Shown here: piece by piece, positions 32,557 through 36,548 of the stretch
Position numbering within the stretch: position 1 is the first letter of the stretch
How the letters are laid out: each line of letters begins with the position of its first letter
NCBI RefSeq assembly: GCF_009766105.1
Contig: NZ_LMUH01000025.1
Span: 253,190 to 317,189 of the forward strand
Source of the DNA: Granulicella sp. S156
Lineage (GTDB): Bacteria; Acidobacteriota; Terriglobia; Terriglobales; Acidobacteriaceae
Direction of reading: 5' to 3'
DNA length: 64,000 nt
Made by a program: the position numbers and the translations under genes
Notes under the pieces: generated by a model
Told to the model about the DNA's origin: nothing
Database searches by the model: none
What the model saw: the letters and a program-made list of their open reading frames with translations, nothing else

Positions 32557-33870
32557 ATGAAGCCCAATCCGCGCATCTTCCTCTCTGCCGGCGAAGCCTC
32601 CGGCGACGCCTACGGCGCTGCCCTCATCGATACCCTGACCGAACGGCTTCCCGGTGCGGCTTTTACCGGCCTGGGCGGCTCTCAGATGGAGCGCGCTGGC
32701 CAGCAGCGCGTCGTCCGCGCCGAAGAGGTCGCCGTCATGGGCGTTACTGAAATCCTTCGCCACATCCCGCATATCTATGCGAGTTACCGCAAACTGGTCC
32801 GCTCCATCCGCGCCAACCGGCCTGACATCGCCGTACTTATCGACTTCCCCGATGTGAACTTCCGGCTAGCCAAGCATCTCCATCGAGCCGGAGTCCCCGT
32901 AGTCTGGTTCGTCAGCCCCCAACTCTGGGCCTGGAAGCGTCGCCGCCTGCGCTGGGTCCAGCAACGTGTCGACAAGATGCTCGTCATCTTCCCCTTCGAG
33001 GAGAGGTTCTACCGCGAACGCGGTGTCGATGCTCAATTCGTCGGCCACCCCCTGGCCGAGCTTCCGTTGCCCTCAATCTCTCGCGAGGCATACGCCGAGC
33101 AGCACGAACTGGACCCGGCAAAGACCTGGATCGCTCTTCTGCCCGGCAGCCGTTGGAAGGAGATTCGCGCCAATCTCCCGACGCTTCAGGAATTGGCCAT
33201 GAGCGACCTGATCGCCAGCTCCGCAGCCTATACGACCTTCGACGGCAACAGAGTCCGGCAGCCACGAGATCCAGCAGCCCATACTCTCTATGAGTTCCTG
33301 CTGCCCGTCGCCTCCACCATCGATCCGACCCGGCTTCGGATCTACATCAACCAACTGAACGCCGAGCACCTGAAGTACTTCGGCCCGGAGGCCTCCAGAC
33401 TACGCCTCACCTTGGTCCCAAACGCCTCCGAAGCACTCTTCCATGCTCGCGCCTCGGTCGTTGCCAGCGGCACGGCAACCGTCCTGGCGGCCATTGTTGG
33501 CAATCCATTTATCGTCGTCTACCGGGTCTCGGCGCTGACCTTTGCACTGGCCAAAAAGCTCGTCGAGTACCCCTCCGAATTCCCCAATATGCTCGATCTC
33601 GACGGCAACCTGCCGGTAGCGATGGTCAATCTCATCGCCGAACGGCGTATCGTTCCGGAGCTTCTCCAAAGCCGTTTCACCGCCGCCAACGTCGCCTCTG
33701 CCCTCTCCCCACTGCTGGCCGAGGGGCCAGAACGCGAGACCCAGATCGCAGCCCTGGCCAAAGTCCGCAACAAGCTCCGTGCGACGGATCAGACAGAGGG
33801 GTCTCCCATCAATCGTCTCGCCGAAGCCGTAGTCGATCTTCTCTCCACCGAACAGTCCGTAAGCCCTTAA
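32557..33870 (+). CDS. lpxB: lipid-A-disaccharide synthase
   Basis: 437 residues, against about 380 in E. coli. Transfers GlcNAc-derived UDP-2,3-diacylglucosamine onto lipid X to give the lipid A disaccharide, at the inner face of the inner membrane. Family motifs in order: FLSAGEASGDAYGAALIDTL, FTGLGGSQM, VLIDFPDVNFRLA, VWFVSPQLWAWKRRR, QFVGHPLAE, LLPGSRWKEIRANLP, VVASGTATVLAAI, LLAEGPERE. Residues about 213-244, between ANLPTLQEL and YEFLLPVA, are an insertion relative to the usual form. It is not next to other lpx genes here. Confidence 0.92.
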   Translation: MKPNPRIFLSAGEASGDAYGAALIDTLTERLPGAAFTGLGGSQMERAGQQRVVRAEEVAVMGVTEILRHIPHIYASYRKLVRSIRANRPDIAVLIDFPDVNFRLAKHLHRAGVPVVWFVSPQLWAWKRRRLRWVQQRVDKMLVIFPFEERFYRERGVDAQFVGHPLAELPLPSISREAYAEQHELDPAKTWIALLPGSRWKEIRANLPTLQELAMSDLIASSAAYTTFDGNRVRQPRDPAAHTLYEFLLPVASTIDPTRLRIYINQLNAEHLKYFGPEASRLRLTLVPNASEALFHARASVVASGTATVLAAIVGNPFIVVYRVSALTFALAKKLVEYPSEFPNMLDLDGNLPVAMVNLIAERRIVPELLQSRFTAANVASALSPLLAEGPERETQIAALAKVRNKLRATDQTEGSPINRLAEAVVDLLSTEQSVSP

Positions 33871-33999
33871 CCGTACAATCTCGTCTAAGACATTTGAACC
33901 GGAATCATTCATCCAGCAACCCAAACGACGGGGCACCATAACGATAGGGGCGCAGTGCCGGAACCGCGGCAAGCAGCCTTCGCCCAAGGACTTTACTGC

Positions 34000-35961
34000 A
34001 TGATCCAACACCTCCGCAGCCTCTGCATCCTTCTGGTTGGACTCTCGCCACTTGCTCTCCACGCAGCGCCCCCGGGGAGACCGCAGATCGACATCACCGG
34101 CTATGTGATTCATGCCGACCTCGATCCAGCGACCGGAAAATTGAGCGCCACGGCGGCCGTTACCTTTACCGCGCTCGACGACCTCAACGTCGTCGTCTTC
34201 GGCCTGAACAACGGCCTGCAGGTCAGCAAGATTACCGACTCGACCAACGCCACACTGAACTCCGAGCGCAACGTCACCGACTCGACCATCCGGGTTACGC
34301 CTCCGGCTCTGGTAGCCAAGGGTTCCTCGACAACCTACACCTTTATCTACTCCGGGGCGCCAACGGTCGAAACCAGTCCGGTCGATGGCATTAAGCTCGT
34401 CCAGGTAGCCGATCCCGTCAGCATCCTGCTCTATGCGGGTCGCTGGTTTCCCATGACCGGTCTCTTCACAGACCGCTTCACCGCCGAGATGCACATCACA
34501 GTACCCGAGGGCGAACGCGTCGTCGGCAGCGGCGTAAGTGGTGAACACAAACTCCCCGGCGGCGGCACCGAGTTCGTCTTCAACTGGACCAAGCCAGGCT
34601 TTCCCGGAACCATCATCGCGGGCAAGTTTCTCCCGCCGATCAGCTCACCGGGCATTCCTAATATTCGTGCCTTCGTCACCGATAAGTACAAGGAAAAAGG
34701 CCACGACTTCACTTCCACAGTCGCTAGAGAATTCGAGTTCATGACCAACCTCTTTGGAGGTGCAGAGTCAGGGCGTCTAGAAGTTGTTGAACTCCCGGCG
34801 GATTCGGTCTCCGCCGCCTGGGCGCCCGAGATCGTCGCCATCCGCCCCGACCGGGCCAATACACGGCTGTTTGCAAACACCGTGGCGCACCAGTGGTGGG
34901 GATCGGAGATATCTCCTGCGTCTCTAAATGACGCGTGGATCACCAACGGCATGTCGCGCTACGCCGAACTCCTTTACCTCGAAGACTCCGCCGGCAAGAA
35001 CGCCATGCAGTCCGCCATCACCGACATAGAAGCAGGTGCACTGGCCTACGACACCGAACCTCTCACCACGCTCGGCCGACTCGATCCCTTTTCACCGCAA
35101 TTTCAGTCGATGACCCTTGAAAAGGGCGCGATGGTCTTCCATATGCTGCGCTGGGAGATGGGCGATGATGTCTTTCAGCAGTTTCTGCGCTCTCTGCTCT
35201 CTCAATACACTGACAAATCTGTCCATACAGCAAACGTCCTAACCGTCGCCGAGGCACAATCGAAGCTTCAACTCACTCCCTTCTTCTCGCAGTGGCTTGA
35301 CGGCACCGGTGCACCCGAGTTCGGCAATAACTTCACCGTCTTCCGACTCGGCAACAGTAAGGGTTTCCGCACCGTCGGCTCCGTCACACAGGACCTGGAT
35401 CTCTTCCGTATGCCTATCGAGCTGCGCATCGAAACCGAGGGCAAAACAGAAGAGCGCCGTGTCGATCTCTCCGGAACGGAATCGGCTTACTCTATCGAGA
35501 CCTTTGGACGCCCGCGTCGCATCACCATCGATCCTGATAACTGGGTGCTTAAGAGCACACCCGACCTAGCCGTCCGTATTGCCGTGCTGCGCGGCCAGCA
35601 GGAGGTCGCACAAGGGGATCTGATGGCCGCCATCGCTGAGTACCAGAAGGCACTCGACTCCAATCGCGCCAGTTCGCTGGCCAACTACCGCCTCGCAGAG
35701 ATCTTCTTCACCCAGCGCAACTATCAATCCGCCGCCAATTCCTTCCGCGATGCTCTCCGCGGGGACGGCGACCCTAAGTGGACCGAGGTCTGGTGCCACA
35801 TCAATCTGGGTAGGATCTTCGACGTGACTGGACAGCGCGAACGTGCCGTCAACGAGTACCGCCTCGCCGTACAGACCAACGACAACACCCAGGGTGCGAT
35901 CAACGAAGCCCGCGCACTGATGCAGAAGCCTTACCAGCGCGAGCAGGTTGCGACCAACTAA
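34000..35961 (+). CDS. catalytically dead M1-type peptidase homologue with TPR-like tail
   Basis: 653 residues. Signal peptide 1-22 (ILLVGLSPLALHA). Residues 25-200 match the beta-saddle of M1 aminopeptidases. The core keeps AHQWWG, NDAWITNG and the helix LEKGAMVFHMLRWEMGDD, but the zinc site is lost: HExxH reads N293-T294-V-A-H297, and the third ligand Glu reads Asn316. The GAMEN exopeptidase motif is absent too. The C-terminus (about 545-650) has TPR-like helices (QGDLMAAIAEYQKALDSN, LANYRLAEIFFTQRNYQSAA). Likely a binding or scaffold protein in the periplasm. Start at 34000 with AAGGA upstream. Confidence 0.85.
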   Translation: MIQHLRSLCILLVGLSPLALHAAPPGRPQIDITGYVIHADLDPATGKLSATAAVTFTALDDLNVVVFGLNNGLQVSKITDSTNATLNSERNVTDSTIRVTPPALVAKGSSTTYTFIYSGAPTVETSPVDGIKLVQVADPVSILLYAGRWFPMTGLFTDRFTAEMHITVPEGERVVGSGVSGEHKLPGGGTEFVFNWTKPGFPGTIIAGKFLPPISSPGIPNIRAFVTDKYKEKGHDFTSTVAREFEFMTNLFGGAESGRLEVVELPADSVSAAWAPEIVAIRPDRANTRLFANTVAHQWWGSEISPASLNDAWITNGMSRYAELLYLEDSAGKNAMQSAITDIEAGALAYDTEPLTTLGRLDPFSPQFQSMTLEKGAMVFHMLRWEMGDDVFQQFLRSLLSQYTDKSVHTANVLTVAEAQSKLQLTPFFSQWLDGTGAPEFGNNFTVFRLGNSKGFRTVGSVTQDLDLFRMPIELRIETEGKTEERRVDLSGTESAYSIETFGRPRRITIDPDNWVLKSTPDLAVRIAVLRGQQEVAQGDLMAAIAEYQKALDSNRASSLANYRLAEIFFTQRNYQSAANSFRDALRGDGDPKWTEVWCHINLGRIFDVTGQRERAVNEYRLAVQTNDNTQGAINEARALMQKPYQREQVATN

Positions 35962-35963
35962 AG

Positions 35964-36548
35964 CTATAGGCGCAAGTTGGCGTTCTTCACCAGCATCGGC
36001 TCTTCGGTATCTTCAACAATCCGCGAAGAAAACCCGATGTCGAGCAAAAAAACACTCACCGCATCGGCAATCGAAGCCTGGAGAAACCGGCTGCGCACGA
36101 TCTCCAACTCGCCCTCGAGCAGATTAGCCGTCGCGCCACGCAGCGCCACACAACGCCCGGAGCGATAGGTGCAGGAGGCAAGATCCGTGATGCTCAACGC
36201 GCGCGTGGGCGTGCAAAGGATCGTGCGTGGCGGAGCCATGCGGTCCAACAGACTGAAGATCTCCAGCTTGGATTCAAGTTCGTCAGGAACGAAGTCGATC
36301 ACCAGGTCCGCATCGTGCACAGCGTCTTCGACGGTGCCAGCATAGCGCAAGGAACCCGTCGCGCCCACCGCCGCAACAAACTCTACATATTCATCCTGCG
36401 CGCGCCGGAGGTTCGAGGGCATTACATCCTCAAGCACAACCTGTACCCCAGCGCCCGCACAACGAAACGCGAAGGCACGCCCTGCAGAACCAGCACCAAT
36501 GACGGCTACCGATCGCACATGAAAGGCGCCGTGCTCCTGAGCGGACAT
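35964..36548 (-). CDS. NAD-binding half of a 3-hydroxyacyl-CoA dehydrogenase-like protein
   Basis: 194 residues. The N-terminal Rossmann motif SVAVIGAGSAGRAFAFRC, EDVMPSNLRRAQDEY, DADLVIDFVPDELESK and TILCTPTRALSITDLAS follow 3HCDH_N. The protein ends where the C-terminal dimer and catalytic domain should begin (family about 285 residues), and the position of the catalytic His (family GLHFFNP) reads LRGAT, with Arg137. A conventional dehydrogenase reaction is therefore unlikely. It could be an NAD-sensing remnant. Small gene 36555-36737 precedes it by six bp, probably in one operon. Confidence 0.75.
   Translation of the reverse strand: MSAQEHGAFHVRSVAVIGAGSAGRAFAFRCAGAGVQVVLEDVMPSNLRRAQDEYVEFVAAVGATGSLRYAGTVEDAVHDADLVIDFVPDELESKLEIFSLLDRMAPPRTILCTPTRALSITDLASCTYRSGRCVALRGATANLLEGELEIVRSRFLQASIADAVSVFLLDIGFSSRIVEDTEEPMLVKNANLRL

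Follow-up and report, generated by a model that had tools for sequence, protein, structure and literature searches.

An acidobacterial family of M1 aminopeptidase homologues with a replaced zinc site and a TPR-like tail, usually encoded behind lpxB

TAF2 is not known to have aminopeptidase activity. According to portions of two papers, this protein brings an aminopeptidase-like fold into the large complex TFIID, of which it is a subunit (PMC6220335, PMC4309443). The yeast protein Tma108 is an M1 pseudopeptidase which, in the part of PMC11266112 that deals with it, is proposed to bind and not to cut; it keeps all the active-site residues but one and binds nascent chains, apparently via its cleft. 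In E. coli, lipid A is described in sections of PMC7730581 as controlled by LapC (YejM), which possesses a periplasmic pseudo-hydrolase domain, and by LapB, a TPR scaffold, and an excerpt of PMC3087551 presents lipid-A genes as often clustered. In the literature that we searched, which covers part of the field, we found no description of an acidobacterial M1/TPR family or of an lpxB-linked peptidase.

The gene which we analysed belongs to a window (the whole stretch of 64,000 nucleotides taken from Granulicella sp. S156) and has the following features, listed together with the lpxB gene which precedes it:

32557 to 33870, plus strand: lpxB, lipid-A-disaccharide synthase (Pfam 278.9 bits; NCBIfam lpxB 240.9 against a cut-off of 190.25)
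34000 to 35961, plus strand: gene of the pseudo-M1/TPR protein, 653 residues (open frame, Pfam matches)
34000 to 34068, plus strand: putative signal-peptide-like segment, residues 1-23 (reading of the sequence)
34081 to 34659, plus strand: M1 N-terminal beta domain, about residues 28-220 (predicted model, VIA-align to LTA4H and other M1 proteins; borders approximate)
34660 to 35307, plus strand: catalytic-like domain of thermolysin fold, about residues 221-436 (Pfam PF01433 at 276-432, predicted model)
34876 to 34890, plus strand: dead HExxH motif, N293 T294 V295 A296 H297 (codons AAC-ACC-GTG-GCG-CAC)
34945 to 34947, plus strand: N316 in place of the third zinc ligand, Glu (codon AAC)
35116 to 35118, plus strand: L373 at the position of the catalytic Tyr, YxKG (codon CTT)
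35308 to 35535, plus strand: beta domain like M1 domain III, about residues 437-512 (predicted model, of lower confidence here)
35560 to 35925, plus strand: TPR-like helical tail, residues 521-642, replacing M1 helical domain IV (Pfam TPR, predicted model, conservation)

Judging by its Pfam score, the window protein is a member of peptidase family M1 by homology: the Peptidase_M1 model matches residues 276-432 with 61.7 bits against a cut-off of 27.7. In the tail, TPR_16 (residues 531-589, 33.4 bits against 32.7) and TPR_2 (within about the same residues, 30.0 against 27.0) pass their Pfam cut-offs, the other TPR models are at or below their own, and the NCBIfam scan of the protein brought no model up to its cut-off. 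The frame starts with the ATG at 34000, which follows an AAGGA and opens the signal-peptide-like N terminus; the GTG at 33955 is a second possible in-frame start. An earlier note, made from the letters of the window, had read the metal motif HExxH-18-E as N293-T-V-A-H297 and N316, and the codons confirm this reading, together with the intact frame of 653 residues and the retained AHQWWG. As it had also stated, the GxMEN motif is lost: the sequence is WAPEI, with the Glu (E277) alone in place. The export that it had proposed is supported by the look of the N terminus, and of 138 rows of the family, 133 have a hydrophobic signal-peptide-like stretch ahead of the mature protein when a simple and loose rule is applied. 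Finally, it had placed a TPR-like tail after residue 545; the tail holds, its start does not, the modelled helices beginning somewhat earlier. The genome of the window contains four further PF01433 matches, and the frames at all four carry intact HExxH-type motifs.

The AlphaFold model of the window protein (pLDDT 80, pTM 0.75) consists of an M1 beta domain, a thermolysin-like domain, a third beta domain and then TPR-like helices from residue 521. Searched with this model, Foldseek ranked IRAP and ERAP1 at the top. With VIA-align, LTA4H (3fui; Z 38.7, 420 residues, 3.3 A) and the M1 protein of Deinococcus radiodurans (6a8z; Z 37.9, 404 residues, 3.5 A; 22-23% identity over 403-404 aligned residues) are tied as best, since their Z values are within 1 of each other. 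The predicted structure of the window protein has the three-dimensional fold of M1.

We then describe the family in the phylum, with a search profile (A1) of 29 rows from which one broken orthologue, L021, was excluded. (The genome of this orthologue, at L021:3845-5900, is derived from a metagenome; the gene breaks into two frames at about residue 400, which could reflect decay or a faulty assembly.) Within the order of the window, the profile has a match at 1e-10 in 245 of 249 genomes and at 1e-80 or better in 237; the 12 genomes without a full-length match (four with no match, eight with weak ones only) may in part be assembly gaps. In a sample of 297 genomes of the phylum, the full-length type is present in 97, of which 96 reach 230 bits or more in one row and one (G282) has it in pieces, and 65 of these 97 fall outside the class of the window. 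The next whole matches of this sample do not exceed 128 bits; they cover the M1 core and have no tail. The 178 loci collected gave 157 frames over 200 bits, 141 of them distinct when identical frames are counted once, and the zinc site was scored once per genome in 137 genomes, some of which may be of the same species (L100 and the C-terminal piece of L021 were not scorable). The complete triad of zinc ligands occurs in none of them: 61 keep no ligand, 75 keep one and 1 keeps two. Ligand 1 is never His; it is Asn in 80 genomes, Arg in 45, Asp in 7 and another residue in 5. The alignment column of L373, which we take to be that of the M1 catalytic Tyr, has a Tyr in 10 of the 137 genomes and a gap in 2; a Tyr stands there in 26 of 27 active M1 rows, which is consistent with this assignment. 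In a comparison set of ordinary M1-type genes, a frame was obtained from 38 of 40 loci, and H[E/D]xxH is present in 38/38. Beyond what the earlier note had seen, the loss of the zinc site is common to the whole phylum-wide family, and most of the genomes tested show a link between its gene and lpxB. The pseudoenzyme which that note had suspected is supported by the clade-wide replacement of the zinc site and by constraint; the members of the family are almost certainly pseudopeptidases, that is, zinc-free homologues of M1 aminopeptidases.

The tree was built by a quick method from 96 hand-picked rows, 69 of the family and 27 of the 38 ordinary active M1, after removal of the four zinc columns; some of its branches are long and some rows have an unusual composition, for the most part active ones. 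A branch with an SH-aLRT support of 100 splits the 69 family rows from the 27 active ones. Three subclades each form one side of a branch: the class of the window (99), the remaining lineages with a link to lpxB (98) and type B (100). Type B had been delimited first, by its motif and by the absence of lpxB, and its status as a clade was seen afterwards in the tree. The simplest reading of these sequences would be that the zinc site was lost once and that drift came after, both the root and this number of losses being provisional. The motif sets are NTxAH..N, NxxAH..D and DEIAQ..Y in the class of the window, mostly RRxA[Y/L/R]..D/E in the second subclade and mostly REVAY..Q in type B. A single substitute metal or catalytic site for the whole family was rejected, as the replacing residues differ by subclade.

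The conservation of the modules was computed on 44 hand-picked diverse rows of the family (set A2). On average, two rows are identical at 0.31 of positions for the N domain and 0.32 for the catalytic-like domain, against 0.41 for domain III and 0.46 for the TPR tail (0.51 for the core of the tail), which is the best-conserved module of the phylum-wide alignment. In the old active site the column identity is 0.28 for T294, 0.26 for H297, 0.25 for N316 and 0.17 for L373, while N293 (Asn or Arg) has 0.61 and the columns of A296, Q298, W299, W300, K375 and G376 have 0.91-1.00. This means a retained fold, an active site that can for the most part vary freely, and a guarded tail.

The best explanation of the whole would be an exported pseudo-M1/TPR scaffold or chaperone-like helper in lipid-A or outer-membrane assembly, to which we give about an even chance; the outer-membrane role taken by itself, for which gene order is the basis, we hold more tentatively, at somewhat below even. 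It can be supposed that the zinc site was lost once, early in Acidobacteriota, in a protein whose TPR tail replaced the M1 helical domain. The protein would be exported to the periplasm and peptide cutting would be abolished; the dead M1 body may then be a platform, folded and rigid, and the docking of partners would fall to the surface of the TPR tail. Co-produced with LpxB in most lineages, such a protein could act as a scaffold or chaperone-like helper for lipid A or the outer membrane. The loss of the zinc site, the grouping in one clade, the constraint and the lpxB neighbourhood are observed, and the architecture is predicted; we infer a periplasmic location, co-transcription with lpxB, a scaffold role and the role in the outer membrane. 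A protein-binding helper in outer-membrane building is suggested because the gene is kept under strong selection and usually stands right behind lpxB.

The same conservation data could be read in favour of a periplasmic peptide-binding pseudopeptidase, whose cleft would capture the N-termini of peptides or unfolded proteins and whose TPR tail would pass them on, without being specific to lipid A. The nearly invariant core around the old site would fit such a protein, as would the retention of the Glu of GxMEN (Glu277) in 73 of 137 genomes, and Tma108, as presented in the relevant part of PMC11266112, is a precedent. However, columns 294, 297 and 316 and the Tyr column are all below the mean of their domain, column 293 being higher, the Glu which grips the substrate amine in active enzymes is missing from the other 64 genomes (51 have Gly), and the invariant core may be structural only. 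We regard this explanation as unlikely.

The preferred reading, a helper in lipid-A or outer-membrane assembly, draws on the gene neighbourhood. In the window, the stop codon of lpxB is 129 bases ahead of the pseudo-M1/TPR gene, on the same strand; because of this gap their co-transcription is putative, and a weak, sigma-70-only test found no promoter or terminator pattern between the two. We counted as testable the type-A genomes whose sequence extends 1300 bases or more ahead of codon 30 (n=111, from two of the three subclades). In 108 of these 111, window included, a same-strand lpxB precedes the gene by no more than 1.6 kb and is usually its direct neighbour. Its stop is found 40 to 416 bases before codon 30 in 106 of them (216 in the window), 751 bases before it in L173 and 1536 in L160, and the three genomes without lpxB upstream are G040, G007 and G263. 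The linked genomes cover 15 family-level groups and 16 named loci. Further upstream, 14 loci, all from the class of the window, have an ABC-exporter gene (ABC_membrane and ABC_tran in L023). In type B, lpxB adjoins the gene in 0/18 testable genomes, and no neighbour is common to more than 3 of 19 loci. Three of these 19 loci are near other lipid-A, outer-membrane or LPS-core genes, which may be due to chance: L126 adjoins Pfam-assigned genes for LpxI, an LpxA-type acyltransferase, OmpH/Skp and Omp85, L137 adjoins relatives of the LpxI, LpxA-type acyltransferase and OmpH/Skp genes, and L142 adjoins two heptosyltransferase genes.

Two observations can be added on the neighbours. The LpxB of the window (32557-33870) aligns to its model as two segments (profile 1-210 and from about 250 onwards). 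The same is seen in several other members of the genus and suggests an insert or a divergent stretch after residue 210; split matches also occur elsewhere in the phylum. On the minus strand, at 35964-36548, convergent with the pseudo-M1 gene, the window encodes a protein of 194 residues which matches only the NAD-binding half of 3-hydroxyacyl-CoA dehydrogenase; relatives with 57-71% identity occupy the same place in L006, L007, L008 and L009, and none does in L027.

The presence or absence of lpxB is uninformative on function, since lpxB is too common: it is found in 272 of 297 genomes of the phylum, against about 97 for the pseudo-M1/TPR family. In G390 and G438 the family gene is present and no lpxB match was found; in G153 and G150 we found neither lpxB nor a full-length family gene; G048 and G239 have lpxB and weak family matches only. 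In three genomes of the window's genus (G043, G127 and G169), lpxB is followed by a relative of 4-alpha-glucanotransferase with 66-74% identity to that of the window (the copies of G127 and G169 are cut by a contig end); the family gene is absent between them and left no remnant better than E 2. In a fourth genome of the genus, G159, the family gene is absent and other genes follow lpxB. As these four keep lpxB without the family gene, the latter is dispensable for lipid A somewhere. The gene downstream of lpxB in G159 (L211:5091-7247, minus strand) presumably encodes an M13 (neprilysin-type) peptidase-like protein.

The linkage to lpxB might be an old arrangement that was passed on vertically and says nothing about function, the protein having another role in the envelope. 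This would agree with the 18 type-B genomes in which lpxB is not adjoining and with the loss of the family gene from some genomes of the window's genus which retain lpxB. However, functionless gene orders usually break up over such distances, and the linkage, with 108/111 genomes, extends across two subclades and 15 family-level groups. We consider this explanation as quite unlikely.

The zinc site of the closest relatives was followed by scanning the genomes of 84,980 species for patterns derived from the window protein, a procedure which finds close relatives. It gave 36 loci, 28 of which (L006-L033) are close orthologues. In each of these 28 the motif begins with N-T. Asn stands at position 316 in 27 of them and Phe in L008, and the position of His297 is Arg in three (L019, L027, L032). 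Apart from these, L034 (39% identity by tblastn) has the motif DEIAQ...Y, six non-acidobacterial M1 matches (L035-L040) retain HExxH and L041 matches the TPR part only. The locus L007 comes from a record labelled Verrucomicrobia, but it encodes a copy with 77% identity to the window protein and has lpxB upstream; the genome is probably mislabelled. Among the named relatives, Granulicella mallensis X5P3 (L027) comes closest, with 92% identity; against it the window has a Nei-Gojobori dN/dS of 0.038 (dS 1.03). By the same method, dN/dS is 0.074-0.156 for three more orthologues, a fourth being saturated, and 0.02-0.21 in eight other pairs of the family; frames in the pairs without the window run from stop to stop, hence some non-coding sequence is included. 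For lpxB, the ratio is 0.133 between the window and L027, and 0.114, 0.081 and 0.48 in three other pairs. The earlier note had excluded random decay, and the N-T of 28/28 orthologues and this low dN/dS bear it out; an HExxH restored in close relatives, which it had named as a sign to the contrary, was looked for in the 28 orthologues and is absent from all. The Asn/Thr/Asn set, whose conservation as a clade it had proposed to check, is conserved among the close relatives of the window; family-wide it is one of several replacement sets.

The NT clade comprises 65 genomes which share N-T and N/F316, so that the invariance of N293 and T294 belongs to its definition. Position 316 is Asn in 98.5% of them and the Tyr position is Leu in 91%; the mean frequency of the commonest residue is 0.77 per column. 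This near fixation, and a ligand 1 which is not random among the 137 genomes (Asn 80 or Arg 45), are what one could expect if the protein were still an enzyme, working with an unorthodox metal site or with a metal-free chemistry that uses the replaced residues. However, the replacing residues vary between subclades, and within the NT clade itself the remaining His is Arg in 9/65 genomes and the catalytic Tyr is gone in 61/64 genomes with a residue at that position, so we think this very improbable. A sequencing error at the zinc-site codons, which the earlier note had envisaged, or a pseudogene, has practically no chance left and is treated as refuted, with the same N-T residues in 28/28 orthologues, an intact frame, a dN/dS of 0.04 and nothing found in favour.

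As sequence searches give it the label Peptidase_M1, a subfamily present in 97/297 sampled acidobacterial genomes can be mistaken for an enzyme. The link with lpxB offers a concrete and testable way into the building of the outer membrane in a major soil phylum. The NT, DE, RR and RE types form a natural series of dead active sites, in which the drift of a pseudoenzyme after the loss of catalysis can be followed.

Finally, we compare the family with the known systems. LTA4 hydrolase, the two-domain M1 of Deinococcus radiodurans and ERAP1/IRAP resemble it in the predicted fold of domains I-III and in the QWW-like and KG core. Unlike these active M1 proteins, the family, as seen in the window protein, has zinc ligands 1 and 3, the general base, the catalytic Tyr and GxMEN replaced, and a TPR tail where helical domain IV stands. 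Tma108, in the portion of the source already quoted, is linked to the ribosome and retains its active site but for one residue, whereas the window protein has lost the zinc site itself and looks exported. TAF2 is a eukaryotic nuclear protein and is likened to the family by the use of the fold. With Pfam at E 0.001, neither the LapB zinc ribbon PF18073 nor LapC PF11893 is found in the window protein. Among 21 genomes (that of the window and 20 relatives), PF11893 has no match and the ribbon is over its cut-off in 0/21, with one sub-threshold match in G003; the latter test is weak, as at most 150 candidates were scored per genome with this 28-residue model, which also rings in controls such as B. 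subtilis. According to sections of PMC7730581, LapC differs from the window protein by its inner-membrane helices, and LapB by its nine TPRs and its rubredoxin-like domain. The likeness, within what these sections describe, is that lipid-A synthesis is tuned there by a hydrolase domain that is dead and by a TPR protein, a precedent for the role proposed here. By this analogy, the family may be a factor controlling or assembling lipid A or the outer membrane, an independent invention of "pseudo-hydrolase plus TPR" in one soluble periplasmic protein that is encoded behind lpxB and absent from the literature searched; we think this possible, if rather doubtful.
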